Numbered from the stretch's first letter, positions 1 through 17,740 are shown. The stretch is DNA of 32,404 nt from Thermoplasmata archaeon (GCA_022750205.1 JAKIWD010000010.1:1-32404); one strand, 5' to 3'. Made by a program: numbers and translations. Notes: generated by a model not told the origin, from the letters alone.

Positions 1-2133
1 ACCCGCCGAGGCAGCTACCGCCGGGTCGCGCTGGTCGTCTTGGGCGCGGTCGCCTTCGCCGGGATCATGGTCCTGAGCGGGGCTGGCCCCGCCCAGTTGA
101 CCGGACGCGGTGCGACCCCGACCCGCAGCTTGGGCGGGGTCCTCACCGTGGCCGGAAGTTCGGCCGGCCCGGCCGCGACGCTGGTCACGCTACCCTCCAG
201 CACGACGACCGCCGCCGTGACCGATGCCCTCCAACTCGGCATTACCGCGGCCCCGGGCGCGATCTGTGCATCGGGCACCAGCTCCTGCGGCGCGGGGACC
301 GATACGGCCCGGGTCACGTTGACCGCCGATGCGGGCGGCGCCGGGCAGCTCTCGTGGCCCGCGGTGCAGGTCGCCTTCGTCGTGGAAACCACGCTCTACG
401 ACGGCGTGTTCGATCCGAGCAATACCGGGGATGAGCCCGGTTACGACCCCTGCGCCGCCCCGGCCGGTTCTCTCAACACGGCCTGCGAGGAGTCGAACGG
501 CGTCCCGTACTTCACCGTCAACGCCCAGCTGATCGCCAACTCGATCGCCGCGGCGAACCCGCACACCACGGTCTCGTTCGCGATGGTCGACTACTTCGCC
601 ACGCAAAGCGACTGGAACGACGGCGATGGGGTCGAGTACCACGTCGACATCCCCACCTTCGTCCCCTCCTCGACGTTCGGCCAGGCGGTCACACTCACCT
701 TCCGCCAGGAGGTCCTCCTGGGCCACCTCTACTACGAGGACTCCGACTTCGCCGACAACATCCTGAGCTCGAGCTCGATCACCGCCCTGTACGGCACGAT
801 CGTGGGCAGCGGGCTCAACTGGGCGAACGACACCCATCACGTGATCGTCTGGCTCGGGTCCACGGCCCCGCGGGACCCCAACTATCTGGAGAACTACTGC
901 GTGAGCGCCAACACGGCCGCGGCGGGCCACTTCGGCTCGTGTGACGCGGCGACCTGCGAGCCGTCCAACCCGTTCCCCACCGGCGCCAGCCCGAACTGCG
1001 AGGGATGGGTCAAGTCCCAGGACGGTAACGCGACCCACAGCATCGCCGCGCTCGCCAAGAGCGCGAAATCGTGTACCGATTCCGTCGGCGGGGTCTGCAC
1101 CGTCGACACGATCGATTACTGGACCACCTCCACCGACCCGTACTCCGAGGGATGGCCGACGCGGTTTTCGACGATCGGCGGGGGCCCCGGGGGTCTCGCC
1201 GTGATCGAGAACGTCGTCCACGTCCTCGAGGCGGGATGCGATCTCGCGGCGGCGACGGGCGGCACGTGGGACGGACCGGCGTTCTGGACCTGTCCGAACG
1301 GGCAGGTCGGCACGCTCCAGTACGTCACCCACGGATCGTACAACAATCCGAACACGAACAATCCGACGCTCTTCGCCGCGCTCCGACAGATCGGCTTCGG
1401 GCCGGTCCTGAACACGCAGGTCGCCTCGGGCTCGGGCCATCCGATCTTCTCGTACGTCCCCATCGGGAACATCGCCATCGCCCCGAACTTGCAAGCTTCG
1501 GCAGCCTGCCAACGTGGGGGCGAGACGTTCCAGACCTGCCAGTTGGTGCCGGTCGTGCTCCATTCGGGCTCGACGACCTACCTCGGCTGGAACTGGAGCA
1601 CCAACAAGAGCCTGAACACGATGTACGTCGGCGACTTCTGGACGGCGTCGTTCAACATCATCGCTAACGGTCCCCCGTACGCCTCGGTCCCGGTCGATGC
1701 GTGCATCACGATCTACTGCAAGGCTGGCGGCAGCAACGCGGTCGGCTCGCTCTACACCTGGGCGTCGTACGTCCCGGCGTCGAACAATACGATCGTGACC
1801 GATTCGTTCCCGCTCGCGACCATCCATGTCGAAACGGGGACCCCGACGACGCTCGGTACGGCCCCTCCGCCTCCACCCCCCGTACCCCCGCCGTTCGCGA
1901 TCCCGACCGCGCCCCCGGTCCCCGTCGTCCAACAGCTGGGGGTCTCCAACACGATCGGCGTCGGCAACGTCTCGCTCCAGGCAGCGGCCGCGGGCTTCCT
2001 CGGCGCCGGTTTCATGCGCGTGTCGATGAAGAACAAGCCGATCGCCATGCGCGTCGCCGCCAAGGCCGGACCACTGGTCTCGCGGTTCGACAACGACGCG
2101 ATGAAGGGTGTTGGGGTCGGTCGTTTCGAGTGA
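1..2133 (+). CDS. Partial Cys-rich secreted protein with a vWA-like core
   Basis: The frame is open to the first base, so the true start lies upstream; 710 residues are visible. The first residues (basic RRGSYRR, then a hydrophobic run ending near position 96) look like a signal peptide or N-terminal anchor. A strand reading VAFVVETTLYDG (positions 370-405), a helix-like segment at about 510-560, a second strand (VSFAMVDYF) and a later strand HHVIVWLGS (about 835-860) follow the order of a von Willebrand A fold. The usual DxSxS metal site reads ETTLYDG, so metal binding is doubtful. Many cysteines (for example around 896-1005 and 1070-1100) suggest disulfides outside the cell. A proline-rich spacer lies at 1861-1920, followed by a weakly hydrophobic stretch and a Lys/Arg-rich tail that might be a short anchor. 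Role unknown; the vWA call is inferred from pattern only. Confidence 0.75.
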   Translation, partial: TRRGSYRRVALVVLGAVAFAGIMVLSGAGPAQLTGRGATPTRSLGGVLTVAGSSAGPAATLVTLPSSTTTAAVTDALQLGITAAPGAICASGTSSCGAGTDTARVTLTADAGGAGQLSWPAVQVAFVVETTLYDGVFDPSNTGDEPGYDPCAAPAGSLNTACEESNGVPYFTVNAQLIANSIAAANPHTTVSFAMVDYFATQSDWNDGDGVEYHVDIPTFVPSSTFGQAVTLTFRQEVLLGHLYYEDSDFADNILSSSSITALYGTIVGSGLNWANDTHHVIVWLGSTAPRDPNYLENYCVSANTAAAGHFGSCDAATCEPSNPFPTGASPNCEGWVKSQDGNATHSIAALAKSAKSCTDSVGGVCTVDTIDYWTTSTDPYSEGWPTRFSTIGGGPGGLAVIENVVHVLEAGCDLAAATGGTWDGPAFWTCPNGQVGTLQYVTHGSYNNPNTNNPTLFAALRQIGFGPVLNTQVASGSGHPIFSYVPIGNIAIAPNLQASAACQRGGETFQTCQLVPVVLHSGSTTYLGWNWSTNKSLNTMYVGDFWTASFNIIANGPPYASVPVDACITIYCKAGGSNAVGSLYTWASYVPASNNTIVTDSFPLATIHVETGTPTTLGTAPPPPPPVPPPFAIPTAPPVPVVQQLGVSNTIGVGNVSLQAAAAGFLGAGFMRVSMKNKPIAMRVAAKAGPLVSRFDNDAMKGVGVGRFE

Positions 2134-2246: not shown

Positions 2247-2348
2247 CCGTGAAGGAGACCACCCCTCGGAGTGTCCGGCGCCGCTTCGTTCCGAAGGTCG
2301 GCGTGTCGCGTGGGCGCTCCTGACGAACGCCATGGGAGTGGAAGAGTC

Positions 2349-4406
2349 GTGAACCGCCTGTCGTCGCCGGTGCGCCGTCCGTCCGAACCCGTGGCCCGAC
2401 GCTGGGGACCGACCTTGGGCGTCCTGGCTTTCTCGTTCATCATCGTGGGCCTGATGGCCTCTCCGAGCAGCGCGGTCGCCTCTCATTCCTCCGCGCTCTC
2501 GGCGCCCCATCCGACCGCGGCGCCCTGGGCGCCGCTCGCGCGGATGGCTCCGTCGCCGGCCTCCTCTTCGAACACCACCTTCCAGCCGCCCTGTTACAAG
2601 ATCGATACGACCGTCTGCGTTTCCATCCAGAGCGCCAACGAGACCAACATCATCCCCCCGATCGGCTCGTTCGTCTCCTCACAGGAACCGAACGCGACGG
2701 GCGATCTCACCCTCGTGATCAAGTCCCACCAGCACCTCAACTGGTCGAACAACCAGAAGTCCGGACCCAACTCCCCGATCGCCCTCAACGTCACCGGGAC
2801 GCTGTGGAACGGCGATCTCTACTATTCATCCTACGACGGGACCGTCTGGCACTCCAACAGCCCGTCGTCGTGGTGGCAGCAGTTGCCGTACGTCTCCCAG
2901 AACCTGACGTACCCGTGGTGGTACACCGTCGTCCTCTCGGCCAAGGGCTCCAACGGCGCCCCGAACTTCTTCCCCGGGATGACGGTCCAATGGTGGATCT
3001 ACCTGACCTACAACGTCAGCATCAACACCTCGACCACGTACGTCCACCACTTGAGCCCCGTTTTCCAGTTCACCTACTCGGGTGCCTGGCCGTTCTCGCC
3101 CTACCCCGGAGCGTACCAGTTCGCGGGGTCGACGGCGACGTCGGAGGACATCAACATCACGCAGACGCCGTTATTGCCCAACTTCAATGACTCCGTGACG
3201 ATCGTGCTCAACACGACCCAGGCCGACGTACTGAGCAACGCCACGATCGGGCTGAACTCGTACCTCGATCTGGCCGAGACCGGCCCCAACGGCACCTTGC
3301 TCGACACGGCGACGCTCTCGTTCCCGGTGACCGTCACCGGCGGGTTCGGCGCGGTCAGCACGACGGTCGTCATCCCCGCCGCCTATGGCCAGATCGCGGG
3401 TGCCGCCGTCACGTACACGTTGTCCGTCCGGGACGTATCGAACGATCTCCTCGTGACGCCGGCGACGACGTACGTCGTGGGGGGCAATGGGTCGTTCCTG
3501 TCGGGGGTCTTCGTCGATGACCTCTCGCTGACGACCGATCCGTCCGCGGTCCTGGCGGAATCAGTGGGCGCCGCGGTGCTCCTACCCGGGCAGGGATTGA
3601 ACCTGAGCTTGCAGAGCCGCAACCCCGGCACCGCCATCAGTGCGGCGGAGATCGTCTACACCGTCAGCTATCCGCTTCTACACGAGACCGTGCTGTTGAC
3701 CATCCCCTTCACGCGCGTGACGTCGATCGACTTCACCTCCCGCGTCCCGGGCCTTCCGCTCGCGACGTGGGTCAACTTCACGGTCTACTCGTGGGACTTC
3801 ACCGAGCACCTCGAGGTGTCGCCCGAGTTCGGCTACCACACCCCCGACCTCGCGACCGCGATCCCGATCGTGCCGACGAACTCGTCGTTCTTCTACGTCG
3901 ATGTGTTCGACAACGGCTCGCACACGTGGGTCACGGGTGCCAAGGTCCAGATCTACGGGCTCGGCGGGGCGTTCAACATCGTCTCCAACACGACGCTCGG
4001 TGTCGCCTATCCGAACGAGACCGCCGCGCCGTTCACGCCGCTCCTGATCGCGGCCAACACGACCTACGTCGTGACCGTCACCGACCCCTGGTTCGTCCCT
4101 TCGACCGGCCATGCACCGACCGACGTCAACGTCACCGTGCTCGCGCTCCATTCGATGGTCGCGCACCAGACGTTGCTCGCCGGCACCGACTACACCGTGG
4201 TGCAGGAGGGGAACTCGGTCGTTTTCTGGCTCAATGCCACACCGCCGCCGCCCCAGCCGTCTCCGACGGTGAGCGGGGGTAGCTCGATCCCCATCACCGG
4301 CATCCTCGGGGTCGTCGCCTCCCTCGCGGTGGCGTTCCCCCTCAGTATCTGGTGGAAGCAGATCCGTGCCCGTCGCAAGGCCGAAGAGAAGCGGGTGACC
4401 CTGTGA
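2349..4406 (+). CDS. Membrane-anchored surface protein, beta-rich ectodomain
   Basis: A 685-residue protein from GTG 2349. An in-frame GTG at 2271 would add 26 residues without signal-peptide character, so the later start is preferred. The N-terminus has a basic region and a hydrophobic segment (GPTLGVLAFSFIIVGLMA) ending before small residues, as in a signal peptide. The ectodomain is rich in Ser, Thr, Asn, Tyr and Trp with many N-x-S/T sequons, typical of archaeal glycosylated surface proteins. The C-terminus has a Pro-rich stretch, one membrane segment (about residues 645-665) and a basic cytoplasmic tail ending RRKAEEKRVTL. That tail is nearly repeated in the next gene, whose GTG overlaps this stop by 4 nt, so the two are translationally coupled and probably paralogous. 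I recognise no named domain and propose no enzymatic function. Confidence 0.85.
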   Translation: MNRLSSPVRRPSEPVARRWGPTLGVLAFSFIIVGLMASPSSAVASHSSALSAPHPTAAPWAPLARMAPSPASSSNTTFQPPCYKIDTTVCVSIQSANETNIIPPIGSFVSSQEPNATGDLTLVIKSHQHLNWSNNQKSGPNSPIALNVTGTLWNGDLYYSSYDGTVWHSNSPSSWWQQLPYVSQNLTYPWWYTVVLSAKGSNGAPNFFPGMTVQWWIYLTYNVSINTSTTYVHHLSPVFQFTYSGAWPFSPYPGAYQFAGSTATSEDINITQTPLLPNFNDSVTIVLNTTQADVLSNATIGLNSYLDLAETGPNGTLLDTATLSFPVTVTGGFGAVSTTVVIPAAYGQIAGAAVTYTLSVRDVSNDLLVTPATTYVVGGNGSFLSGVFVDDLSLTTDPSAVLAESVGAAVLLPGQGLNLSLQSRNPGTAISAAEIVYTVSYPLLHETVLLTIPFTRVTSIDFTSRVPGLPLATWVNFTVYSWDFTEHLEVSPEFGYHTPDLATAIPIVPTNSSFFYVDVFDNGSHTWVTGAKVQIYGLGGAFNIVSNTTLGVAYPNETAAPFTPLLIAANTTYVVTVTDPWFVPSTGHAPTDVNVTVLALHSMVAHQTLLAGTDYTVVQEGNSVVFWLNATPPPPQPSPTVSGGSSIPITGILGVVASLAVAFPLSIWWKQIRARRKAEEKRVTL

Positions 4407-6352
4407 GGCCGTCGTCCCGGACCCTCGGACAGCTGGCCCTCGTCGCGGTGGTCGCCCTCACCTTGGCGGCCCCGTTCCTGCCGACGCTCCATGCGACCTC
4501 CGCACTGCCCGCACCCCGTGTCGTGACCCCGGCCCACGGAGGGAGTGCCGAGGTCAAGCCGACCGCCCAGATGCCCGCCGCGACGTCGCACCCCTCGGCG
4601 ACCGGCTCGTGCCCGACCCCGACGGGGACCCCGATCTGGAACTCCCCGAGCTTCTTTTCCGACGCCCTCGTGAACTTCTACGTCCCCGGGGACCCTGCCC
4701 TGAACAATTCGAACTTCCAGACCGAGCCGTGCCCGACGAACGTCATCCCGACCTACCTCAACGGATTCTGGATGTACGTCACATCGAACGTGGCGCTCCA
4801 GAACGCCAACGTCACCATCTGGGGCACGAGCTGGTCGACCCCCGGCAACTTCCAGCCGGACGTCCCGAACTTCGCGCCGGCGACGCCCCGGGTGATGCCG
4901 ATGTACCTGGAACCGCCGTACTACCACACGGCGGCGTTCTACTTCAACATCTACGAGTTCTTCTGGCCCGGCTCGCAGATCTACTTCAATATCACCCTGC
5001 AGACCATCCAGGCCTCGCCCGGTACGATCCGCTCGACGGAGAGCACGCACAACGTGCCCGTCCCCTTCTCCGGTGGGGTCAACAATGCGACCTGGGGCTT
5101 CTACGTGGCGGACCCGTGGGGCGCGGGTAACTTCGCCGAAACGGACGAGAACTTCAGCCAGGACATCGCGGTGAGCACGACGCCCTCGGTGCTGACCACC
5201 CCGGCGTTCCAGCCGAATCCCAAGCAGACGCTCCAGATCACGCTCACCTCGATCAACCCCTCGGGCGGCAAGGTCACCCCGATCCCCATGGCCGAAGGGA
5301 CGTTCACCCTGACCGGCCCGGGCAACGGTGGGGTCTACTACCAGTACTTCGGACCGACGAACCATACGACCATGCAGCTCGTCCTTCCGCTCGGGCCGTA
5401 TCCGGGCACCCGCGTCCAGTTCAACATCACGGCGTGGTTGCCGTGGGAGCAGAGCACCAACGGCCAGGTCGGCGCCATCGACCGGATCTACAGCCAGATC
5501 TACTCGTTCAACTGGTCCTCGCAAGGGGGATGGTGGGCCCCGACCCAGGGCGTTTCGGGCAACCTCCAGTTGTCGATCACCCCGAACGTCAATGCCACGG
5601 GCGTCGGGAAGACGACGACCTACCTGACCGACACGCCGGTCAACGTGACGATCCACTCCCCGATCGAGAACGTCACCATCAGCTCCGCCGCGATCCAGTT
5701 CCGCTACAGCGACGCCAACGGCTTCACCACAGGCGCGATCACCATGTCGGCGATCACCAAGAACACGTCCTCGGCGATCCTCCCGGGTCTCGCGCCGGGT
5801 GGGACGGTCGTCTTCTCCGTCACGGCCAAGGACGTCTTCGGTAACCCCGTCTCGTCCGGCAACTACAGTTACACCGAGACCGGCCCGGTCAATCCGACCG
5901 TCCTGCCCGTCCCCGCGGGCTACGGGCTGTTCTTCGTCGAGGCGCTCGATCTGTCGAGCGGCCAGCTCGTCTCGAACGTGAACTACTCGATCTCCAACTC
6001 GACCTGGTCCGAGCACGGCCGCGGTAGCCTGTTCGGCTTCGCCGCGCCGGTCCCGATCGGCGGGGTCGGTTACTTGCCGGTTTCGTGGGGTGGGTTCACG
6101 GTCACACTGACCGCCTTTGGCAACACCGAGACCTACACGTTCACGGTCGCGTCGGCGACGCCGTTCACCGTCGTCTTCTATTTCGCCTCGCAGCCGATCA
6201 CACCGAACACTTCTGTCAGCCTCGGCACGTCGCTCACCCTCCCCGCGGTCGCGGGATTGGTGGGCGCGGCGGTCGTGAGCCTGCCCGTAGTGGGTTGGTT
6301 CCGCGAACGCCGTCGCAAGGCCGAGGCCGAGCAACGCCGAGTTACACTCTAA
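4403..6352 (+). CDS. Membrane-anchored surface protein, paralogue of preceding gene
   Basis: A 649-residue protein. GTG 4403 overlaps the upstream TGA in a GTGA junction and is chosen over an earlier in-frame GTG at 4352, because it puts a short basic N-terminus directly before the signal-peptide core (LGQLALVAVVALTLAAP). The ectodomain is beta-rich, aromatic and carries many N-glycosylation sequons. It ends in one membrane segment (LPAVAGLVGAAVVSLPVVGW) and a basic tail, RRRKAEAEQRRVTL. The tail matches that of the upstream protein, and a region before the anchor also lines up (PAGYGLFFVEALDLSSGQ here with PTNSSFFYVDVFDNGSH there). The next gene starts 19 nt downstream behind a good ribosome site, so surface proteins and AAA ATPase are probably made from one message. 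Function unknown. Confidence 0.85.
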   Translation: MRPSSRTLGQLALVAVVALTLAAPFLPTLHATSALPAPRVVTPAHGGSAEVKPTAQMPAATSHPSATGSCPTPTGTPIWNSPSFFSDALVNFYVPGDPALNNSNFQTEPCPTNVIPTYLNGFWMYVTSNVALQNANVTIWGTSWSTPGNFQPDVPNFAPATPRVMPMYLEPPYYHTAAFYFNIYEFFWPGSQIYFNITLQTIQASPGTIRSTESTHNVPVPFSGGVNNATWGFYVADPWGAGNFAETDENFSQDIAVSTTPSVLTTPAFQPNPKQTLQITLTSINPSGGKVTPIPMAEGTFTLTGPGNGGVYYQYFGPTNHTTMQLVLPLGPYPGTRVQFNITAWLPWEQSTNGQVGAIDRIYSQIYSFNWSSQGGWWAPTQGVSGNLQLSITPNVNATGVGKTTTYLTDTPVNVTIHSPIENVTISSAAIQFRYSDANGFTTGAITMSAITKNTSSAILPGLAPGGTVVFSVTAKDVFGNPVSSGNYSYTETGPVNPTVLPVPAGYGLFFVEALDLSSGQLVSNVNYSISNSTWSEHGRGSLFGFAAPVPIGGVGYLPVSWGGFTVTLTAFGNTETYTFTVASATPFTVVFYFASQPITPNTSVSLGTSLTLPAVAGLVGAAVVSLPVVGWFRERRRKAEAEQRRVTL

Positions 6353-6353
6353 A

Positions 6354-6363
6354 AAGGTAGGAG
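6354..6363 (+). promoter_or_regulatory. Ribosome binding site of the membrane AAA gene
   Basis: AAGGTAGGAG lies 8 nt before ATG 6372 and directly after the upstream TAA. It resembles the archaeal Shine-Dalgarno core and fits an internal operon gene translated with a leader. A similar AAAAGGTAG precedes the ATG of orc1/cdc6. Confidence 0.5.
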
Positions 6364-6371
6364 CAAGACGC

Positions 6372-9300
6372 ATGGGAACACCGAGCACCAAGACGAGCAT
6401 CCCCCCGAGCCAACCGCCCGTGGCGCCCGCACCGGCCCCCGCGCCGATGCCCGCCCCGGCTCCGGCGGCGCCCGCGCAGCCCGCGGTCAAGCCGGCGCCG
6501 AAGCCCGCGGCCGCACGCCCGATGGCCAAGCCGGCGACCGCCGCTTCCACGGCGATCCGCCCGGCGACCCGCACAGGGACACCGGCCTCCCGAGGGCCCC
6601 CCAAGACCCCGGCACGCACCCCACCCCGCGCTCCCGGTGGCGGCAAGAAGCGGTTGGGCCGGACGTTCTGGGCGCTGTTCATCATCGGTCTCATCCTCGT
6701 CGGGACGGGCGCCGCCCTCGAGGCGTCGTTCTATCCAGAGATCGTGCACGCCACCACGGCGTCGGAGTTCCTGTCGGACTCGCACGCCGCGCTCTCCACC
6801 AACAAGGCCGCCACCATCGTCCAACTCGCGAGCTCGTTCACCGTATCGGGCGCGTCGGTCGGGGTCGGCAGCACGATCGTGGTCAAGGACTCGGTCACCG
6901 GCATCAAGTACAACTCGACGACCGACACGACGGTGCTCACCTTCGGCTCGATCTCCTCGCTTCCCACGGCCCAGCGCGCGAGCCAGACCGCGCTCAGCAA
7001 CGACCTGTTCGGCACGGTCCAGGGTCAGCTCACGTGGCTTTCGACCGGCCAGACGGTCGTCATGACGTTCACGATCGTCAACGCCAAGCTCCCCAGCGGG
7101 GTCTACCAGAGCCTGAGCTACACGACCATCGACGGCGCCGCGGACGCGACGTATAACGCGATCAACACCGGCGCGAACGGCGCCAACGCCGTTGCGATCG
7201 GTCCCCAGTTCCTCCAGCCGTCGCCCGCGCCGCTCTACGACTACCTGTTCTTCTTCCTGATGGCCCTCGGCGTGATCGTCCTGTTCCTCGCCGTCGCCGA
7301 GGTGTGGCTGCTCCACCGCCCGATCGAGCGGTGGCTGATGAAGCAGACCAAGGACCCCAAGCACCTCACGACGATGGTGATGGGATTCACGGCGCTGTTG
7401 GGCGGCTTCTTCATGCCGTTCTACCCGTGGCCATGGGTCCTGCTCATCGCCGGCGCGGTGATGCTCGTCGCCTGGAAGTTCCCCCAGCTGTCGCTGCTGA
7501 TCCTCGTGCTGTTCGTCGCGCCGGAGGTGGCGTACCAGTCCGGGCCGCTCGGGTTCATCTTCCTCTTTGCGACGATCCCGATCCTGTTCGCGTCGCTCCT
7601 CGACTTCCGATTCGGGGTCGGGGCGTTCCTGACGCTGTTCCTCGCCCCGATCGGGCTGTCGTTCACCGTGCCGGTGTTCCTGGCCATGATCTTCTCGCTG
7701 TACCTCGGCCTCGCGGTCGCGGTCGCCGGCGGGCTCATGGTCACGCTGTTCGTCACCCTCGGCAATCTGCCGGTCCTGGGATACCTGGTCGGTCCGGGGG
7801 CGATCGGCACGCCTAGCCTGATCGCGGGTCACGCCTCTAGCCAGAATCCGACGTTGCCGTTGCCGTACTTCACGGCCAACAACATCGGTCAGGCGTACGG
7901 GCAGATGCTCAACCCGAACACCCAGATCCTGGCCCTCGGCGGGTCCGGGATCGGCCAGATCGCGATCCCCCTCGCGGAGATCGGGGCCTGGTGCCTCGCC
8001 ACGTGGCTGATCACCTACGCGTTGCACGAGCGCGAGAAGCAGTCGTTCGAGAATCTGTTCAAGTACTCGATGTTCTCCGGCGCGATCCTCGCCGGGGTCA
8101 CCGGCGTGGCGCTGCTCTCGTTCAGCTACACGAACTGGACCGACGTCTTCGTCCTGCTGCTCGTCCCCGGGATGCTCACGGCGGCCGCCGGCTCGCTGAT
8201 CATCCGGGACGCCTTCGAGGCGTACTTCACGAGCCGTCTGGGCGGGACCGCGGTCGGTACGCGCGTCGCCGAGATGAAGGGGCTGACCAAGATCACCTTC
8301 GAGATGGTCGGCGGTCTCCACGACGTCAAGGCCGACATCAAGGAATCGATGATCATCCCGCTGATGCGTAAGGACGTCACCTCGCGCTTCAAGCTCGAGC
8401 CGCCCAAGGGGATCCTTCTGTTCGGCCCACCGGGCTGCGGCAAGACGATGCTGATGAAGGCGCTCGCGAGCGAGCTCGGCGTCGAGATGATCTCGATCAA
8501 GTGCTCGGATCTGATGAGCAAGTGGTACGGAGAGAGCGAGAACCGCGTGGCCGAGCTGTTGCGCACGGCCCGCGAGCGCGCCCCGTGCATCCTGTTCATG
8601 GACGAGATCGATGCCGTGGCCAAGCGCCGCGACATGTACACGGCGGACGATGTGACGCCTCGCCTGCTCTCGATCCTGCTGAGCGAGATGGACGGGATCG
8701 ACAAATCGGCCGGTGTCATCGTCGTCGGTTCGACGAACAAGCCGGATCTGATCGACCCGGCGATGATGCGCCCGGGGCGCCTCGACAAGATCATCTACGT
8801 CCCGCCGCCCGACTTCAACGAGCGGATGGAGATCACCCACGTCCACCTCGTCGGCCGACCGGTCACCAACGACGTCGACCTCGCGGAGATCGCCAAGAAG
8901 ACCGAGCGGTTCAGCGGCGCCGACCTGGCCAACCTCGTGCGGGAGGCCGCGACGATCGCCGTCCGACGCGAGATGATGACCGGCGTCTCCACGCCGATCA
9001 CGATGGACGACTTCCGCCAGGTGCTGCCGCGGATCAAGCCGTCGATCTCGCTGCGCATGATCTCGGACTACGAGGTCATGAAGATGGACTACGAGCGCAA
9101 GATGCACCAGGTCCAACTGATGGAACGCAAGATCGTCCTCCGCAGGGACGACGACGGCGGACTGACCGACATCAAGCAGGCGATCCGCGAGTACGTCGAG
9201 CTGCCGCTCACCCGTCCCGAGCTGATGGAGAGCTACAAGATCAAGACGGGACGCGGCATCCTCCTGTTCGGACCGCCCGGGTGCGGCAAGACCCACATCA

Positions 9301-10037
9301 TGCGGGCGGCGGCCAACGAGCTCAACGTGCCGATGCAGATCGTCAACGGGCCCGAGCTGGTCAGCGCCCTCGCCGGCCAGTCCGAGGCCGCGGTGCGGGA
9401 CGTGCTCTACCGGGCCCGTGAGAACGCGCCGTCGATCGTCTTCTTCGACGAGATCGATGCGTTGGCGAGCAAGGACTCGATGAAGACCCCCGAGGTCTCG
9501 CGTGCGGTCAGCCAGTTCCTGACGGAGATGGACGGCCTGCGGCCCAAGGACAAGGTCATCATCATCGCCACGACGAACCGGCCGCAGATGCTCGACCCAG
9601 CGCTGCTGCGTCCCGGGCGGTTCGACAAGATCTTCTACGTCCCGCCACCGGACCTCGTCGCCCGCCAGGACATCTTCCGCATCCACCTCAAAGGGGTGCC
9701 GACGGAAGGGGCGATCGACTTCGGTGACCTGGCGCGGCGGAGCGACGGCTACTCCGGCGCCGACATCGCGAGCGTCGTCGATGAGGCGAAACTGATCGCG
9801 CTACGCGAGCAGCTCGTCACCGAGAACAAGGACACCGGCCCCGGTGCGGGGACACCCGGCATGTTCACCGCGAGCGCGACGCCCGAACCGGCCGCGAAGA
9901 TCGAGCCGACGAGCAAGATCGTGGGCGTGCGGATGAACAACCTGCTCGAGGCCATCACCCGGACGAAGACGTCGATCACTCCCGAAACGCTGGCCTGGGC
10001 CCAGGAGTTCATCAAGTCGTACGGGACGCGGACGTAG
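6372..10037 (+). CDS. Polytopic membrane protein fused to tandem Cdc48-type AAA+ modules
   Basis: A 1221-residue protein. Residues 1-95 are a Pro/Ala-rich basic, presumably cytoplasmic, arm. A first membrane segment (about 98-118) leads to a beta-rich outside domain (about 120-288). A second segment (290-314) is followed by a cluster of hydrophobic segments between 332 and 611, roughly ten in all. Two AAA+ domains follow. D1 has Walker A GPPGCGKT at 685-692, Walker B MDEID around 744-745 and Arg-finger region MRPGR at 799-803. D2 has Walker A at 967-974, FDEID around 1026-1027 and LRPGR at 1079-1083. Both look competent for ATP hydrolysis. The D1 pore loop is aromatic (KWYGESE, 717-723), while D2 reads ALAGQSE (999-1005). 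The N-terminal substrate/cofactor domain of Cdc48/VAT is absent, and no FtsH zincin (HExxH) or Lon Ser-Lys site is seen. The role is inferred as extraction or unfolding of membrane or exported proteins; no partner is known. Confidence 0.93.
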   Translation: MGTPSTKTSIPPSQPPVAPAPAPAPMPAPAPAAPAQPAVKPAPKPAAARPMAKPATAASTAIRPATRTGTPASRGPPKTPARTPPRAPGGGKKRLGRTFWALFIIGLILVGTGAALEASFYPEIVHATTASEFLSDSHAALSTNKAATIVQLASSFTVSGASVGVGSTIVVKDSVTGIKYNSTTDTTVLTFGSISSLPTAQRASQTALSNDLFGTVQGQLTWLSTGQTVVMTFTIVNAKLPSGVYQSLSYTTIDGAADATYNAINTGANGANAVAIGPQFLQPSPAPLYDYLFFFLMALGVIVLFLAVAEVWLLHRPIERWLMKQTKDPKHLTTMVMGFTALLGGFFMPFYPWPWVLLIAGAVMLVAWKFPQLSLLILVLFVAPEVAYQSGPLGFIFLFATIPILFASLLDFRFGVGAFLTLFLAPIGLSFTVPVFLAMIFSLYLGLAVAVAGGLMVTLFVTLGNLPVLGYLVGPGAIGTPSLIAGHASSQNPTLPLPYFTANNIGQAYGQMLNPNTQILALGGSGIGQIAIPLAEIGAWCLATWLITYALHEREKQSFENLFKYSMFSGAILAGVTGVALLSFSYTNWTDVFVLLLVPGMLTAAAGSLIIRDAFEAYFTSRLGGTAVGTRVAEMKGLTKITFEMVGGLHDVKADIKESMIIPLMRKDVTSRFKLEPPKGILLFGPPGCGKTMLMKALASELGVEMISIKCSDLMSKWYGESENRVAELLRTARERAPCILFMDEIDAVAKRRDMYTADDVTPRLLSILLSEMDGIDKSAGVIVVGSTNKPDLIDPAMMRPGRLDKIIYVPPPDFNERMEITHVHLVGRPVTNDVDLAEIAKKTERFSGADLANLVREAATIAVRREMMTGVSTPITMDDFRQVLPRIKPSISLRMISDYEVMKMDYERKMHQVQLMERKIVLRRDDDGGLTDIKQAIREYVELPLTRPELMESYKIKTGRGILLFGPPGCGKTHIMRAAANELNVPMQIVNGPELVSALAGQSEAAVRDVLYRARENAPSIVFFDEIDALASKDSMKTPEVSRAVSQFLTEMDGLRPKDKVIIIATTNRPQMLDPALLRPGRFDKIFYVPPPDLVARQDIFRIHLKGVPTEGAIDFGDLARRSDGYSGADIASVVDEAKLIALREQLVTENKDTGPGAGTPGMFTASATPEPAAKIEPTSKIVGVRMNNLLEAITRTKTSITPETLAWAQEFIKSYGTRT

Positions 10038-10059: not shown

Positions 10060-10109
10060 CGCACGGGATGCCCGGTGGACGCCGCGACACTCGACCGACT
10101 TCCCGTGCG
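10060..10109 (+). repeat. Inverted repeat in the gap before the small membrane gene
   Basis: CGCACGGGA (10060-10068) and TCCCGTGCG (10101-10109) are perfect 9-nt complements with a 32-nt loop, within the 98-nt gap after the AAA gene. It could be a transcript hairpin that tunes expression of the genes that follow, or a chance pairing. There is no T-tract, so a terminator is unlikely. Confidence 0.3.
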
Positions 10110-10135
10110 GGGCCCACCCTGAGACGGACGCGGCG

Positions 10136-10495
10136 ATGCCCACGCTCGAGGAGCTCCGCCGCCGCCTCGATGCCACGGCGTGGCTGGGGGTGGGAATCGT
10201 CGGTGCCCTCATCTTCGTCCTCGGCGTCTACCAACCGGCGCTCTACCGCCTCCCCTATGCGCAGTACCTGCAGGTCGTGGTCGCGATATTCGGCGGCGCG
10301 CTCGCCGTCCTCGGGCTCTCGTTCTGGTGGGACCAGCGGGAGGACGAGCGCCAGCACCCGCGCGTCGCCCCGCTCAAGGGCCGCGCCCGCGAGATCGCCA
10401 TCGCCCCCAGCTTCGAGGTCTACAAGCCCGGGCCGATCAACCGGCCTCCGCGCGACGGCGAGTCGCCACCGGATCCCGAGCCGGACGCGGACTGA
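10136..10495 (+). CDS. Small two-TM membrane protein
   Basis: A 119-residue protein from ATG 10136. A short charged N-terminus (LEELRRRLD) is followed by two hydrophobic segments (about 16-36 and 44-64), then a hydrophilic tail that begins with a charged WDQREDERQ stretch and ends Pro/Asp-rich. By the positive-inside rule both termini probably face the cytoplasm. It lies 98 nt after the membrane AAA gene and 12 nt before a giant surface-protein gene, so it is probably co-transcribed with them and could be an accessory of either. I do not recognise a family. Intergenic spacing and the clear membrane pattern support it as a real gene. Confidence 0.75.
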   Translation: MPTLEELRRRLDATAWLGVGIVGALIFVLGVYQPALYRLPYAQYLQVVVAIFGGALAVLGLSFWWDQREDERQHPRVAPLKGRAREIAIAPSFEVYKPGPINRPPRDGESPPDPEPDAD

Positions 10496-10507
10496 GCGGG
10501 CGCGCCC

Positions 10508-13500
10508 ATGACCGGGCTCGGCCGCCGTTCGACGCTCCTCGCCGTGCTCTACATGCTCGTCCTGGTCGGTTCGGCCCTTCCGCTCGCTACGGCGGCTCCG
10601 ACGGGCGCCCCGGCGGCGCCGCATCCCGTGGGCAGCGCTCCCCCGGCCGGGGTCTCCCCGTCCGGCGCGCGTGGACTGGTGATTCACCCGACCATCACCT
10701 GCCCCTCGACCCCGCCTCCGTCACCCGTCTACACGCTCGTCGGCGACCTGTTCCCGATGACGCCGAAGATGACGCAGCAGGGCCCGTGCGACCTCGTCGA
10801 CGAGGACGAGGTCCACGCGACGCTCTCCTCGAGCGCGGCCCAATCGGCCGAGACGTACGTGCAGCCGTTGTGGCTGCCACCGGACTCCGCCAGCGGCTCG
10901 CAGTCCTCGGCCTACGGCCAAGTGTACGTCGGCATGATCGTCAGCGGTGACCCCAACTCCGAATGGCGCCAGTCGTACGCCGAGGTCGCGTTCACGCCCT
11001 CGGGGGGGACATGGAAGGAAGAGGTAGCGGTCTGGTCGTTGGTGAACTCCTCGTTCTACGGGGGGCTGACCAACGACTCGGTGGCCAAGTGCCCCAGTTC
11101 GAGCTCGATGTGGTTCAGCTGGAACAACAGCTACTTCTGCGAGGTGGACCAGGCGTCGGGGAACACGTTCGGGACCACCGTTCCGGGCAACTCGTTCATC
11201 AACGTCACCTTCGCCGGGGCCAAGACCAGCAGCTACGGGCTGAACGTCTGGGTCAACGATTCGACGGACAGCCTGCTCAACACGAACTTCACGTTCAACG
11301 CCACCGCCACCGGCTCCTACACGTTCGAGCCGTTCTACAACGAGTCGTGCTTGGACGCGTGCCTGATGGCCTGGTCGTACCCGTTCGGGCTCGGGTTCGG
11401 GATCTTCCCGCTCTCCTACGATGAACCGCTGCTCCGGTCGATGGACCCGCTGACGTTCGGCATCCCCCAGTTCCGCGTCGGGAACGCCTACACCGGCGAC
11501 TACCAGTTCTTCGACCCCGAGTCGGACTCGGGAGCCTGTTACACCGGTGGCGTTTCGGGCACCGTCGCCAACTGTAACGGGTTCAACCTGGGATCGAACA
11601 CGGGCTACTACCCGTACTTCACCTTCAACGGCAGTCAGATCAACTTCGGCGCCGACTGGCCCTGGACGACCGTCGAGTGGGGCGGCGCCGGTGGCGAGTT
11701 CTACACCAACGCCGCGCAGCACGACATCATTCCCCTGTCATTCTACCGGACCTCCAACTCCAGTCGCGCCGGGTTCACTTCGCCCAACGTGCCGGTGGTC
11801 GTCAACGCGACGGTCCAGGACCTGGGAACCGTCACGACGGTCCAACTCAACTATTCGCTCAATGGCGGGGCGTGGACGACCTCGTTGATGAGCCTCATCG
11901 GCGGGGACGCCACCAACGGAATGTACCAGGCCACGATCCCCGGGACCGAAGGCAACGGCATCCTCAACTACACGATCTGGACCACGAATCACGCCGGCAA
12001 GGCGGAACAGAGTCCCGCGTTCGGTGCGTGGGAGGTCCGCCGCGGGCCGCTCCCCACGTTCACGGTGCGCGTCTCGACCAACCTGTTGAGCTGCGGTAAG
12101 ATCGAGTTCAACGGGACGATCTACGCGAACGACTCGACCGTGAACACGCTCCCCGGCTACTTCCCGCTCTTCGGCGTCGGCTGTTACCCGTGGAACTTCA
12201 CCACGTGGGTGCACACCGGAGGGGTCGTGCTCCCCGGCGGGTTCCTGTCCCGCACCACCTCGGCGGAGGTCTACGGCAACGGAACGGTCGACGCCCAGTG
12301 GACGTATGTCCGCCCGTACGACAACATCACGATCGACACCTCACCGTCGACCTGCGGCACCGTGACGATCGGCAACCAGACCCAGAGCAACGGGGGGTAC
12401 GCGCTGATGCTCGATGGGTTCCCCTACACCCTCGCCCAGAGCGGCTGCGGCACGTACGCGTTCAGCGGCTGGACCGTTACCGACAACCTCTCCATCCTCA
12501 ACCCGACGTTCACACCGCACGGCAACGGCACGCTCACCGCGACGTACGTCTCGACCTCGATCGGCGTCTCCCTGCTCTTCTACACCTCTCCGACGACCTG
12601 CGGCGGCGTCCTCTACCGCGGTGCGGGCTACTCGAACGGGCAATCCCTGAGCGTCGCGCCGGGGACGTACCCGCTCGCGGGGGACCCGTGTGCGCATTAT
12701 GGCCTGGAGAAGTTCACGACCCAAGGCTCCGTGACCGCGACCAATACGTCGGTCACGGTCAACAGTTCGGGGGCGGTGACCGAGGTCAACTACCACCTGA
12801 CCGAGATCTCGTTCGTCGTTAACCCGAGCGCGTGCGGGGTGATCACGTTCGACGGCCAGAACTACAGCAACGGGCAGGTCGCCGTCGTCGCCAACGACAG
12901 CACGCACCTCGCCTTCCCTGTCGCCTCGGCGGGCTGCTACCTGATCGCGTTCACCGCCAACGGCGGGCTCACCCTCGAGGGCAACGATGTCATCGCCAAC
13001 GGCTCCGGCAGCATCACCGCCACGTTCCAGACCACGCCGCCGAACCAGGTGATCGCCTTCCTCACCGACCCGTCGGATTGCGGGATCATCAACTTCAACG
13101 ACATCCCGTACCAGAACGCGAACTTCACCAGCATCGCCCAAGGCCTGCGGGTGACGATCTCGGCCAACGCGTGCGCCGGTTACGGGTTCGTGCGGTGGCT
13201 GACCTACGGGCAGATCACCGTGGTCGGTTCGACGGCCTACATCAACTCCAGCGGCGCCATCGAGGCGATCTTCGAGCCGCTCGTTCAGCTCTACCTGCTG
13301 ACCAACCCGCAAACGTGTGGCGAGGTCGTGGTGAACGGTCAGCCGTACGTCTCCAATTCGACGCTGCTCATCCCCCAGCTCAACACCTACACGATCGGCG
13401 CCATCCCGTGCGCCGGGTATGCGTTCGTCGGCTGGCAGAACACGACCGGTGTCGAGATCAGCGGCACGACCATCTACCTGCTTTCGGGTGCCTTCCTCAC

Positions 13501-14215
13501 CGCGGTGTTCACTCCGCTCGTCTACGCCGTGAACATCACGATCTCGCCCTCGACGTGTGGGAGCCTCCGGCTGAACGGGCAGTCGTTGGGCAACGGCGCG
13601 GTGCTCCACCTGACCGGCGGGACGTACCCGCTCGTCGCCGTCCCGTGCGTCGGCGACCACCTGGACCACTGGGCCGTCAACGGGAGCATCCAGGTCATCG
13701 GGTCGTCCGTGTTCGTCAACGGCTCGGGGAACCTTTCGGCGTTCTACGCCCCGGTACCCCCCGCGGTGAGCATCTCCGTCCCCTCGAGCAGTCTCGCCGG
13801 TGACGGCGTGGAGATCGCGGCCACCGTCGGCGTGCTCATCCCGCCCTTCAACTACAACTACACGTGGACGTTTGGCGACGGCACGTCGCTGACCACGGTC
13901 CTCAATATCACCACGCACACCTACAACTCGCCCGGGACCTACACGGTCCGCGTCGAGGTGCGCGATCCCGACAACCGGACGGCCAACGCCAGCGGCACCC
14001 TCACCGTGCTGTCGGCCTCGGCGACCCAGGGCGTGAGCTTCACGACCGGTGAGGTCGTCGGCTTCGGGCTCGTGGCCCTCGCCCTGCTGGCGATGGTCGC
14101 GGTCGTCGTTGTGCGGCGCCGCGGCGACGGCGCCGGCCCCGACTCCACCACAGAGCTTGCTTCGCCCCCGCCAAGTACCCCGGCCACAGTGTCGGACACG
14201 GAACAGAAACCATGA
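10508..14215 (+). CDS. Giant surface protein: ectodomain, seven InlB-like repeats, PKD, TM anchor
   Basis: A 1235-residue protein from ATG 10508. It has a signal peptide (RRSTLLAVLYMLVLVGSALPLATA). An ectodomain of about 450 residues follows, homologous by eye to the one in the gene at 17741: both have a GxxxxVTFxGA...VNDST-type stretch at about residue 228-250 and a WGGAGG(E/Q)F-type motif at about 390-410. Residues 518-1085 are seven tandem units of about 80 residues resembling divergent InlB B-repeats (Flg_new_2 type), each with a paired CG...C, usually a Trp and a closing sequon-rich strand. A PKD domain (about 1083-1170, with WTFGDGTS) comes next, then one membrane segment (EVVGFGLVALALLAMVAVVVV) and a basic RRR stop-transfer tail. 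The stop overlaps the next gene's ATG (ATGA). A stalked, glycosylated cell-surface or adhesion protein is inferred; no ligand can be named. Confidence 0.9.
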   Translation: MTGLGRRSTLLAVLYMLVLVGSALPLATAAPTGAPAAPHPVGSAPPAGVSPSGARGLVIHPTITCPSTPPPSPVYTLVGDLFPMTPKMTQQGPCDLVDEDEVHATLSSSAAQSAETYVQPLWLPPDSASGSQSSAYGQVYVGMIVSGDPNSEWRQSYAEVAFTPSGGTWKEEVAVWSLVNSSFYGGLTNDSVAKCPSSSSMWFSWNNSYFCEVDQASGNTFGTTVPGNSFINVTFAGAKTSSYGLNVWVNDSTDSLLNTNFTFNATATGSYTFEPFYNESCLDACLMAWSYPFGLGFGIFPLSYDEPLLRSMDPLTFGIPQFRVGNAYTGDYQFFDPESDSGACYTGGVSGTVANCNGFNLGSNTGYYPYFTFNGSQINFGADWPWTTVEWGGAGGEFYTNAAQHDIIPLSFYRTSNSSRAGFTSPNVPVVVNATVQDLGTVTTVQLNYSLNGGAWTTSLMSLIGGDATNGMYQATIPGTEGNGILNYTIWTTNHAGKAEQSPAFGAWEVRRGPLPTFTVRVSTNLLSCGKIEFNGTIYANDSTVNTLPGYFPLFGVGCYPWNFTTWVHTGGVVLPGGFLSRTTSAEVYGNGTVDAQWTYVRPYDNITIDTSPSTCGTVTIGNQTQSNGGYALMLDGFPYTLAQSGCGTYAFSGWTVTDNLSILNPTFTPHGNGTLTATYVSTSIGVSLLFYTSPTTCGGVLYRGAGYSNGQSLSVAPGTYPLAGDPCAHYGLEKFTTQGSVTATNTSVTVNSSGAVTEVNYHLTEISFVVNPSACGVITFDGQNYSNGQVAVVANDSTHLAFPVASAGCYLIAFTANGGLTLEGNDVIANGSGSITATFQTTPPNQVIAFLTDPSDCGIINFNDIPYQNANFTSIAQGLRVTISANACAGYGFVRWLTYGQITVVGSTAYINSSGAIEAIFEPLVQLYLLTNPQTCGEVVVNGQPYVSNSTLLIPQLNTYTIGAIPCAGYAFVGWQNTTGVEISGTTIYLLSGAFLTAVFTPLVYAVNITISPSTCGSLRLNGQSLGNGAVLHLTGGTYPLVAVPCVGDHLDHWAVNGSIQVIGSSVFVNGSGNLSAFYAPVPPAVSISVPSSSLAGDGVEIAATVGVLIPPFNYNYTWTFGDGTSLTTVLNITTHTYNSPGTYTVRVEVRDPDNRTANASGTLTVLSASATQGVSFTTGEVVGFGLVALALLAMVAVVVVRRRGDGAGPDSTTELASPPPSTPATVSDTEQKP
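12059..13752 (+). repeat. Seven tandem ~240-bp coding repeats (divergent InlB B-repeat type)
   Basis: The first Cys codon of each unit falls near 12092, 12351, 12599, 12832, 13078, 13316 and 13556, a period of about 233-260 bp (about 80 residues). The unit pattern is: strand, SPxxCGxxxxNGxxYxNG-like turn, strand, GxYPL, CxGYxFxxW-like, then NGSGxLxAxF. Units have diverged strongly, so this is an old protein-level repeat rather than a recent DNA duplication. Confidence 0.8.
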
Positions 14216-17200
14216 TAAGCCCAGAACCGAAGGCGCCCCAAGTCTCCATGAGCGGAACGACGACCCAGCGTATCTGGAAAGTCCCTACCCTGACGCACCC
14301 GAGCCTCGCGCTCGCGCCGTTGGCGCTGATCGCGTTGATGATGGTCCTGCCGGCGTTGCCGGCCGGGTTCCACCTGGCCGGATCGATGGCGGCGCCCCGT
14401 GCGGCGGCCCCCTCGAGCCCGCTCGAGATGCTTTCCAGCCCGTCGACGGTGATCGCCGTCCCGAACCTGGCCCCGCACGGGTTCCCGGCGGTCGGCCTTC
14501 CCGCCTCCGCCTTCAAAGCCTCGGCCTGGGCTGGCGCCTTGAAGGCCGCGGGGGTCCCGGCGGAGACACCCACTGCGGCCTCCTCCACCATCGGCAACTT
14601 CCAAGTGCCCGGCTCGGACTGCGCGGGATTCGCTCCCCTCTTCGGCGGTCAGGTGTTCCCGATCGAGTTCGCGGGTAGCTCCGTGGCGAGCCCCCCCGGC
14701 CACAACACGACGATCGACATCGCCGGTGCGACGCAGGGCCCCGTCTTCGGCGGCGTGGGCGGCGTCAACTGCACGACCGGCTCGTTGACGTCCGCGATCG
14801 CCACGGCGGGCCTGACCTCCGTCTGGCACTCGACCGATGGCGGCCAGACGTTCGCCAACACCTCCATCCCGATCAACCAGACCCACTGGAACGGTTCGAC
14901 CAGCGACCCGTCCTACGGGGGCATCAACTGGGGCACCCCGGCGATCGCGGCGGGCGCGAACAACATCGTGATGGTCGCGAACACCTACGTCAACGGGATC
15001 TGTTACTACAACTACCTGACCTCGGGCACGGGCTGCACCAACTCAACGGGCCTCCAGTCCGACTGGGGCATCGCCATCTCCGTCTCGAACGATGGCGGGG
15101 TGACGTTCAACGCCTCGGCCCAGATCAACGCGTGGGAGGGCCTGAAGTGGATCAACTTCGGCACGTGCACCGCGTTCTCGTCGGGATTCTATTTCCTCGA
15201 CATCGCGGAGACCCCCTCGATCGCCATCAACCCCTCGACCGGGCTCGCGATCGCAACCTGGGACGTCTTCCAGGCGCAACCGGATCCCGCGACCTGCACC
15301 GACAACGGGCAGGCCCGCGCCCAATACACGATCTCGACCAACAACGGGCAGACCTGGAGCACGCCCGGCAACCTGAGCGGGCTCGTCTCGGAGTCGGCCG
15401 CGGTCAGCATTGGACCGGCCCCGACCTACGCGATCAACGCGGTGTTCGATGACTTCCAGAACTCTTCGTCCGGTATCTCGCTCGAGCAGACCGACTCGAC
15501 CAACAACGGCGCGACCTGGACGGCCCCCAAGGACATCGTCACGGACAACTACGACCTGAGCGGCCAAGCCCAGTTCCCGGACGCCTTCTTCGCCCCGACG
15601 ATCGCCCAGCTCGCCGCGGACGGCTCCGGGACCTCGCCCTACAAGGGGCACGTCTACGCCGTCTGGCAGGACAACCAAACCGGCAGTTCGTTCGCGGGCG
15701 CGGACGGCATTCGCCTGATCATGAGCGCGAACAACGGGACCACCTGGGGTTCCTACGTGACCGTGGCCGGCGGTACGGGGGCGACCTCGTACATCGAGCC
15801 ATCCGTCAGCGTGGCGCCCAACGGGAACGTCTGGATCACGTACTACGCGCTCAGCACCTCCTCGGGCAACTACAACCTGGACGGAAGCCTGTCGACCGAC
15901 GGCGGCGCCATCTGGTCGACACCGTTCCTCGTCAGCGATTCCGCGAGCTCGCCCGGCTCGTCGATCTACGACATCGGGGCGCGGACCGGTCTCGCCGCGA
16001 CCTCGAACGGGGCGTACCCGTCCTGGACCGACTGCCGGAACGCCGTCTGCGACAGCAACGGCGACACGACCTACTGGACGGCCAACCCCCAGGCGGTCTC
16101 GTTGAGCTCCAACGCCGCGGGTGTCCCCGCCACGGTGACGACGGCCGGTGTCCAGAGCGTCGTGACCCTCCCGGCGACGCTGGGCTGGGACAACGCGAGC
16201 ACCCACACGATCTCCGTCCCGCAGTACGTGCCCGACACGCTCAACGCGTCGGACGTCTGGGGCTTCGTGAGCTATTCGGGGCTCAACACCTCGACCTCGT
16301 TCTCGACGACGTTCACCTGGTCGGGGGTCGGCTCGAGCCTGACCGCGACCTACACGGCGGTTCCGGCGGCGGTCATCAAGGGGACGTTCTCCCCGATCTC
16401 CGGGGCCTCGCTCAAGCTGAACAACCAGATCGTGCCGTTGACGCCCGACAACGCGACGGCGCTCCAATACACGATCAGCGTCGCGAGCGGGATCGCCTAC
16501 ACGTTCACTGCGTCGGCGTCGAAGTACCAGACCCAGATCGTGACCGTGTTCACGAGCGGGGGCGGCGTGTACTGGCAGAATTACACCCTGGTCAAATCGC
16601 TCGGTAGCTTCAAGGGGACGCTGACACCGTTCAGCGCCCACCTGACGATCAATGGGACGGTCGTCAGCAACGTCTCCCAGGTCAACGGGGCGTTCAACGT
16701 CCCCGAGGTGTGGGGCTGGTACTGGGTCAACGCCTCCGACCCGGGAACCACCAGCTTCTCGGAGTACCTCGAGGTGTTCCCCGGTCTGATCACCACGGTC
16801 GGCGTCACGCTGTTCGGTGGCTGGATCGCCGGGACCGTGAGCATCGGCGGCAAGACCGTCGCCGGCCTCGTCCTGAAGGTCGACGGCAACCCGGTGACCG
16901 TCGCCGTGCCCAGCTACACGTTCAACCAGAGCGTGCTCGGCGGCTTCCACAACATCACCGCGACCGCTCCCGGCTACAACCTGTCGAAGCTGACGGACGT
17001 CTATGTCACGCCGGGCATCGCGACGAGCCTGAGCATCAACCTGACCAACCGTGGGTGGGTCTCGGGGACCGTCGGACCGGTGGCGGCGCTGGTGCACATC
17101 CAGCTGCACATCACCACGGGGACGGGAGCGGGCACGACCGGCAACTATTACCCGGTCGCGGGCACCACGGGTGTGTTCAACGTCAGCTTGCTCGGGGACA

Positions 17201-17619
17201 CGACCTATACGGTCAACCTGAGCGCCGCGGGCTACAAGTCGTTCCAGAACACGAGCACCTACGTCACGCCGGGCAACGCGACGAACCTGGCCGTGACGCT
17301 CTCGGTCCAGACCGGCGGGTGCACCTCCAACTGCGGTACCCAGAACTGTACCGTGACCAACAACTGCAACAATCCCCCGCCCCCCTCGACCTCCAGCGGG
17401 TCGAGCTTCCCGACGACCGACGTGATCATCATCGTGGTCATCGTCGTGCTCGCCGCGGTGGTCGGTGCGGTGCTGTTGATGCGGCGGGGACGCGGCGGCG
17501 GCTCGCAGCCGGCCGACTACGACGAGGGACCCGACACCTACCAGGACACCTCGACCGGCGCGATCCCCAAGCTCCAGCCGGACGGGTCGATGGGTGGACC
17601 ACCTCCCCCGACGCAGTAG
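14212..17619 (+). CDS. Giant surface protein: six-bladed Asp-box propeller, beta-sandwich stalk, TM anchor
   Basis: A 1135-residue protein. ATG 14212 overlaps the upstream stop; an internal ATG at 14248 would give a tidier signal peptide and is an alternative. A hydrophobic signal segment lies at about 33-52. Six Asp-box motifs (S-x-D/N-x-G-x-T-F/W type) occur at 207-214, 292-299, 375-382, 429-436, 505-512 and 561-568, predicting a six-bladed sialidase-like propeller. No sialidase FRIP motif is visible, so binding rather than catalysis is likely. Residues of about 705-1030 hold PEGA/carboxypeptidase-regulatory-like sandwiches, each opening with a G-T-F/L/V strand. Four cysteines at 1037, 1041, 1046 and 1052 precede a Pro/Ser linker, one membrane segment (about 1066-1088) and a cytoplasmic tail rich in Gly, Asp and Pro. 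The gene at 21252 has the same plan. A binding or structural surface role is inferred. Confidence 0.9.
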   Translation: MISPEPKAPQVSMSGTTTQRIWKVPTLTHPSLALAPLALIALMMVLPALPAGFHLAGSMAAPRAAAPSSPLEMLSSPSTVIAVPNLAPHGFPAVGLPASAFKASAWAGALKAAGVPAETPTAASSTIGNFQVPGSDCAGFAPLFGGQVFPIEFAGSSVASPPGHNTTIDIAGATQGPVFGGVGGVNCTTGSLTSAIATAGLTSVWHSTDGGQTFANTSIPINQTHWNGSTSDPSYGGINWGTPAIAAGANNIVMVANTYVNGICYYNYLTSGTGCTNSTGLQSDWGIAISVSNDGGVTFNASAQINAWEGLKWINFGTCTAFSSGFYFLDIAETPSIAINPSTGLAIATWDVFQAQPDPATCTDNGQARAQYTISTNNGQTWSTPGNLSGLVSESAAVSIGPAPTYAINAVFDDFQNSSSGISLEQTDSTNNGATWTAPKDIVTDNYDLSGQAQFPDAFFAPTIAQLAADGSGTSPYKGHVYAVWQDNQTGSSFAGADGIRLIMSANNGTTWGSYVTVAGGTGATSYIEPSVSVAPNGNVWITYYALSTSSGNYNLDGSLSTDGGAIWSTPFLVSDSASSPGSSIYDIGARTGLAATSNGAYPSWTDCRNAVCDSNGDTTYWTANPQAVSLSSNAAGVPATVTTAGVQSVVTLPATLGWDNASTHTISVPQYVPDTLNASDVWGFVSYSGLNTSTSFSTTFTWSGVGSSLTATYTAVPAAVIKGTFSPISGASLKLNNQIVPLTPDNATALQYTISVASGIAYTFTASASKYQTQIVTVFTSGGGVYWQNYTLVKSLGSFKGTLTPFSAHLTINGTVVSNVSQVNGAFNVPEVWGWYWVNASDPGTTSFSEYLEVFPGLITTVGVTLFGGWIAGTVSIGGKTVAGLVLKVDGNPVTVAVPSYTFNQSVLGGFHNITATAPGYNLSKLTDVYVTPGIATSLSINLTNRGWVSGTVGPVAALVHIQLHITTGTGAGTTGNYYPVAGTTGVFNVSLLGDTTYTVNLSAAGYKSFQNTSTYVTPGNATNLAVTLSVQTGGCTSNCGTQNCTVTNNCNNPPPPSTSSGSSFPTTDVIIIVVIVVLAAVVGAVLLMRRGRGGGSQPADYDEGPDTYQDTSTGAIPKLQPDGSMGGPPPPTQ

Positions 17620-17621
17620 CG

Positions 17622-17664
17622 GGGCCCTAGGCCCGAGAACGAACCCTTTCCTTTCTCCATTTTT
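17622..17664 (+). terminator. Possible terminator: short GC hairpin and pyrimidine/T tract
   Basis: GGGCC-CTA-GGCCC (17622-17634) starts 2 nt after the TAG of the propeller gene. It is followed by a pyrimidine-rich run (about 17644-17669) containing TTTTT. Archaeal termination depends mainly on T-tracts, so this may end the long operon that starts near 2349. Read-through is equally possible. Confidence 0.35.
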
Positions 17665-17698: not shown

Positions 17699-17740
17699 CG
17701 AGCTTATGTGGGCGGTCGCGCTCCGAAATCGGGTCGTCCG

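Follow-up and report, generated by a model that had tools for sequence, protein, structure and literature searches.

The window, by which we mean the whole stretch of 32,404 nucleotides analysed (Thermoplasmata archaeon, GCA_022750205.1 JAKIWD010000010.1:1-32404), contains at 6372-10037 on the plus strand a single open frame, running from an ATG at 6372 to a stop at 10037, that encodes a membrane AAA protein of 1221 aa. This gene and its neighbours comprise the following features:

40..2133 (+), secreted protein with a Pro-rich linker and a C-terminal hydrophobic tail (position, weak C-terminal profile match)
2271..4406 (+), Ig-like type I membrane protein 1, cytosolic tail RVTL, start codon uncertain
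4352..6352 (+), Ig-like type I membrane protein 2, cytosolic tail RVTL, start codon uncertain
6372..10037 (+), membrane AAA protein (frame, Pfam, hydropathy, AlphaFold, homologues)
6372..6653 (+), Pro/Ala-rich arm, residues 1-94 (sequence; alignable in close relatives only)
6660..6743 (+), TM1, residues 97-124 (hydropathy and AlphaFold helix)
6759..7223 (+), outside alpha/beta domain, residues ~130-284 (AlphaFold; lineage-specific; no family match)
7239..8198 (+), polytopic membrane domain, residues ~290-609, ~ten helices (conserved family-wide; no Pfam or PDB match)
8277..9041 (+), first AAA module (D1), residues ~636-890, pore loop SKWYGES (Pfam, motifs)
9123..9821 (+), second AAA module (D2), residues ~918-1150, pore loop SALAGQS (Pfam, motifs)
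10136..10495 (+), small two-TM protein directly 3' of the AAA gene (conserved position)

Hydropathy places TM1 near residues 98-116, and more hydrophobic segments follow between residues 285 and 615. The AlphaFold model of residues 89-648 (pLDDT 75.5, pTM 0.67) extends TM1 over 97-124, followed by an outside alpha/beta domain and then by ~ten helices in or at the membrane up to residue 609, among them a short, possibly re-entrant pair (412-440); confidence is low for the helix joining the membrane domain to the AAA part. The original prediction, made from the sequence alone, had described a beta-rich outside domain of about 170 residues. A domain is indeed predicted after TM1, but the model makes it mixed alpha/beta and ~155 residues long. 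An OB fold was considered for this domain and rejected, its structure matches being non-significant (E 0.6 and above). Basic segments (KKRLGR before TM1, RWLMKQTKDPK and HEREK) agree with a cytosolic location of the arm and the AAA modules, and the lineage-specific Pro/Ala-rich arm is probably cytosolic.

Frame, hydropathy, AlphaFold, Pfam and homologues all support one intact gene in which a polytopic membrane domain is fused to two AAA modules, as originally proposed, with no sign of a frameshift. Two genes wrongly joined, or an assembly error, might be suspected in a draft genome of 205 contigs and in GC-rich window DNA where long antisense ORFs are common. However, dozens of independent genomes encode the same fused frame, identical in every homologue on an untruncated contig, which refutes this reading and leaves it a negligible probability. 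All regions are also under purifying selection (dN < dS everywhere), strongest in the AAA modules (dN about 0.03-0.06 vs dS 0.43-0.77), followed by the membrane part (0.24-0.37 vs 0.66-0.76) and TM1 with the outside domain (0.37-0.48 vs 0.57-0.86). One antisense open frame opposite the AAA gene, 6342-9686 (-), spans 1114 residues and most likely reflects GC-rich codon use.

The fusion of AAA and membrane parts was detected in 17/61 related genomes, in 51/300 genomes of the window's class and in 23/293 genomes sampled across the phylum Thermoplasmatota, families outside the class included. When 84,980 species were scanned with a single peptide pattern, matches appeared only in Thermoplasmata, Methanomassiliicoccales or 'Euryarchaeota' draft genomes. 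SubAcS10-22, placed by contig match in the genus of the window, is a Ca. Lutacidiplasmatales genome (PMC9287336). Within this genus the gene is patchy; its absence from several near-complete genomes argues against a general housekeeping quality-control factor. Close relatives carry the arm, TM1 and the outside domain, whereas in other families the protein begins almost at the membrane domain or bears a different N-terminus. Sequence comparison thus marks the outside domain of the window protein as a lineage-specific add-on to an older core, and the conserved core as the membrane domain, the first AAA module, an Ig partner and a small membrane protein.

Pfam assigns two full AAA modules plus AAA_lid_3 (E 1e-85), each module with Walker A GPPGCGKT, Walker B DE and RPGR. 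Across the family, the D1 Walker A, the aromatic pore loop S[KR]WYGES and RPGR are invariant (55/55 sequences holding D1), and Walker B reads DD instead of DE in some other lineages. The D2 pore loop SALAGQS lacks an aromatic residue. D2 itself, complete in the window's lineage, has degenerated in several other families and is missing from single-AAA members. Since D1 is constant and D2 variable, the membrane-proximal ring is probably the essential motor. By its motifs, D1 bears the feature set of an AAA unfoldase, namely an aromatic pore loop, Walker A/B and arginine fingers.

The protein had initially been termed Cdc48-like, a description that holds for the tandem layout only. Tandem classic AAA modules are shared with Cdc48/p97/VAT, the closest solved relatives of the AAA part by sequence, and an unfoldase-motor role is probably shared as well. 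However, the score against the CDC48 model (TIGR01243) is 533.3 bits, below the cut-off of 802.65, some related families have one working ring or a single AAA module, and the window's genome has separate genes for PAN and for CDC48, the latter as two pieces lying at contig ends. In domain trees with the CDC48 and PAN proteins of related genomes, D1 and D2 each form their own clade (99-100 support), and grouping with Cdc48 domains is neither favoured nor rejected (AU p 0.06-0.38), several alternative deeper groupings being compatible with the data. D1 aligns best to Cdc48 D2; a swapped ring order (D1 = Cdc48 D2, D2 = Cdc48 D1) nevertheless found no support in the domain trees, although the AU test does not reject it (p 0.32 for D1 with Cdc48 D2, 0.06 for D2 with Cdc48 D1). 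Unlike Cdc48, the protein has an aromatic pore loop in D1 but not in D2, D2 is dispensable within the family, and a polytopic membrane domain takes the place of the N domain, whose predicted absence agrees with the lack of any Pfam match in residues 1-640. The score against the PAN model also falls below its cut-off (485 vs 500 bits).

With FtsH and the m-AAA and i-AAA proteins it shares an N-terminal membrane part and an aromatic-loop AAA ring, making inward pulling likely. In contrast to that group, which has one or two TM, it has ~ten predicted helices, a second AAA module and no M41 domain. M41 peptidases were found in 0/61 related genomes (10/14 control genomes positive, all bacterial), whereas LonB (TIGR00764) was found in 59/61, in line with the expectation that archaea in general do without FtsH and rely on membrane LonB. 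LonB is likewise an archaeal membrane-bound AAA machine present in the same genomes, but it is a separate protein with a protease domain; the AAA protein has none among the Pfam matches shown, and its Lon match lies in the ATPase region only. The predicted lack of a protease site was confirmed in that no HExxH metalloprotease motif occurs in the 1221 aa. An HbYX tail is also absent, the C-terminus reading ...SYGTRT. Membrane-anchored AAA proteins that lack a protease and move or extract proteins do exist, as in Bcs1 and Msp1, each with a single TM and a single AAA module; they are not known to have Ig or vWA partners.

Residues 1-640 gave zero Pfam matches even with E up to 10. A profile of residues 89-648 matched no PDB sequence, and the AlphaFold model of the same residues matched no solved structure in the PDB with E < 0.001. 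Among 14 membrane domains of the family compared with Pfam, none gave a credible match. An ATP-gated small-molecule transporter or channel, with a classic AAA module as its ATPase, would account for the ~ten predicted membrane helices and could draw on a lone weak Pfam match of one family member to ABC_export (E 0.015). However, no known transporter or channel family was found for residues 1-640 by profile, sequence or fold, and the known classic AAA modules with an aromatic pore loop have polypeptides as their substrates. We therefore consider such a transporter very improbable.

Comparison of ~50 neighbourhoods revealed a conserved operon around the AAA gene, with a constant gene order: a secreted vWA-type protein, one or two Ig-like type I membrane proteins, the membrane AAA protein and a small membrane protein. 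Adjoining genes frequently overlap by a few bases. The small membrane protein lies downstream in 48/48 testable loci, a separate Ig-like gene is present in all 31 testable non-fused loci, and the secreted vWA-type gene occurs in 31/38 testable loci. For the small protein of the window, ORF 10068-10511 was rejected as the wrong frame; the conserved frame is 10136-10495. Downstream proteins have two TM in some loci and four in others, with no detectable homology between the two kinds or to the membrane domain. vWA matches in Pfam are clear in other lineages (L068, L069, L161, L164). The 40..2133 protein, which has no Pfam match and an AlphaFold pLDDT of 31.5, is the probable counterpart of these vWA proteins by position and a weak C-terminal profile match, the first vWA profile having been too permissive for the window's lineage. 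It carries ETT in place of the metal-binding DxSxS of the other lineages; if it is a vWA domain, its metal site has probably been lost.

The Ig-like protein appears to be a partner rather than a client of the AAA protein. In 14 loci an Ig region is fused to the AAA N-terminus and the separate Ig gene is absent. A strict profile built from stand-alone Ig proteins, which gave zero matches to shuffled sequences, matches the AAA N-terminus in 13 of these (E 1e-37 to 1e-60); the 14th (L160) is truncated at a contig end, and its assignment comes from an earlier, less strict profile. An Ig domain in the window's own AAA protein was rejected: the early profile that indicated it contained AAA sequence, and the strict profile is negative there and positive only in fused lineages. 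Across 61 genomes, AAA and Ig genes are co-inherited (15 with both, 42 with neither, 4 discordant; p 2e-10, a guide only, since the genomes are related by descent and not independent). Fusion and co-inheritance together suggest that the Ig protein is probably a subunit, not a substrate. Stand-alone Ig proteins of the window's family and its sister family also share a conserved cytosolic tail, R[VI][ST][LV], found in 40/53 stand-alone Ig proteins overall vs 0/602 other long ORFs. Two genomes, G100 (L145 and L154) and G086 (L148 and L155), each hold two versions of the operon, one with an Ig-fused AAA gene and a vWA gene, the other with an unfused AAA gene.

These findings would also suit a mechanical or signalling device, in which ATP-driven movements of the AAA ring reshape an Ig/vWA head for adhesion or sensing, with no threading. 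In some lineages the Ig partner is fused as a subunit, in others it ends in the short conserved cytosolic tail, and D2 has decayed in several lineages. Yet the invariant D1 aromatic pore loop suggests that a polypeptide is gripped, and we regard a device of this kind as rather improbable.

The combination of an AAA ATPase with secreted vWA, Ig-like and small membrane proteins in one neighbourhood resembles arCOG01314/arCOG02884, a predicted archaeal secretion or membrane-remodelling complex with a MoxR-type ATPase and a flavodoxin-like DUF4350 protein (Makarova 2015, PMC5898192), although the window's own vWA assignment is weak. Here, by contrast, a classic AAA protein is fused to a polytopic membrane domain, and MoxR (PF07726), DUF4350 and DUF1616 were not found by Pfam among the window proteins scanned. 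By the sequence features tested, the AAA protein is not a Cdc48, FtsH, LonB or MoxR protein. Downstream of the operon, at 10508-23894 (+), four giant surface proteins lie in tandem, with PKD, BNR, PEGA, fn3 or carboxypeptidase-regulatory-like domains, a C-terminal TM and a flexible tail. Counterparts of the first occupy the same position in ten related loci, and the R[VI][ST][LV] tail is absent from these giant proteins.

This setting makes export or surface assembly the main rival reading: its part list is similar to that of the predicted secretion complex (PMC5898192), and, in the window's family, giant PKD/BNR/PEGA proteins come after the operon. The AAA protein would then power the secretion, maturation or anchoring of proteins of the surface or S-layer, and the Ig and vWA proteins would make up the outside part. 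Three observations weigh against it. The membrane domain sits at the side where substrate would enter the D1 ring, an arrangement that in AAA proteins known to thread would mean inward pulling; surface-protein neighbours are confined to the window's family among the neighbourhoods compared; and the scanned window proteins yielded none of the MoxR, DUF4350 and DUF1616 components. Outward transport driven by an AAA protein has a precedent in Bcs1. We judge export unlikely, while giving it real weight.

We tentatively propose, at slightly below even probability, that the AAA protein is the motor of a membrane-embedded unfoldase that carries an Ig/vWA head on the outside and threads proteins into the cell. 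The cytosolic ring would be built from several copies, probably six, and would lie beneath a bundle of their own membrane domains, with the small membrane protein completing the membrane part. The Ig-like protein, usually together with the secreted vWA-type protein, would serve as the outside head and recruit substrates. D1, through its aromatic pore loop, would grip and thread a polypeptide arriving through or beside the membrane domain, and D2 would assist in the window's lineage. Polypeptide threading requires a Walker A, an aromatic pore loop and RPGR, and D1 keeps all three without change in 55/55 sequences. Because the membrane part is on the entry side of the D1 ring, movement would run, as in FtsH, from the outside or the bilayer to the cytosol. 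The pulling of membrane-side polypeptides into the cytosol is established for FtsH and related machines. Having no protease of its own, the machine would release the unfolded product or hand it to the proteasome or LonB. The assignment of 6372-10037 as the motor subunit of such a machine is equally tentative, falling just short of an even chance.

The unfoldase reading has points against it: the PDB offers no structural relative showing a path through the membrane domain, D2 lacks the aromatic loop, the gene is patchy in the genus, and the giant surface proteins after the operon would also fit export or assembly. The idea of an extractase for surface proteins was part of the original prediction. 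Its surface link has grown stronger through the conserved Ig partner, although extraction itself is a conditional reading and the Ig proteins are likely subunits and not substrates. More doubtful than the motor proposal is a wholly new archaeal transenvelope machine, in which a polytopic channel, an AAA ring and an Ig/vWA receptor would pull surface or membrane proteins inward for turnover; if true, it would be a prokaryotic analogue of the ERAD retrotranslocon with a built-in Cdc48-type motor.

Membrane-anchored AAA machines are already known, as are AAA-vWA-Ig neighbourhoods. A classic AAA motor joined to a polytopic membrane domain that matches no known family, and accompanied by an adjacent or fused Ig head, was not found in the databases or open-licence literature searched; an earlier description in subscription journals is possible. 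This conserved gene set of uncultured archaea looks like an undescribed membrane-spanning machine that pulls on cell-surface proteins. The removal and remodelling of membrane and surface proteins in FtsH-less archaea are poorly known, and the operon provides a defined gene set, conserved in part of the phylum, with which to approach that question. The fusion of Ig and motor in some lineages makes stoichiometry and orientation directly testable, and the family offers AAA proteins with one constant ring and a second ring that is intact, degenerate or absent.

Among minor observations, the AAA proteins of L067 (11789-12895) and L069 (11789-12904) have a C-terminal Pro-rich linker followed by a SAP domain (Pfam E ~1e-6), which sits behind a degenerate D2 and is unexpected for a membrane machine. 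Farther downstream in the window, a Hef-like helicase at 28509-30641 (+) aligns with the Hef model over its helicase part (positions 1-515 of 781), scoring below the cut-off, and the limited extent of the match suggests that the nuclease part is missing. A class II tRNA synthetase at 27163-28866 (+) comes near the rare archaeal serine-tRNA ligase type, scoring below its cut-off (466 vs 611 bits).
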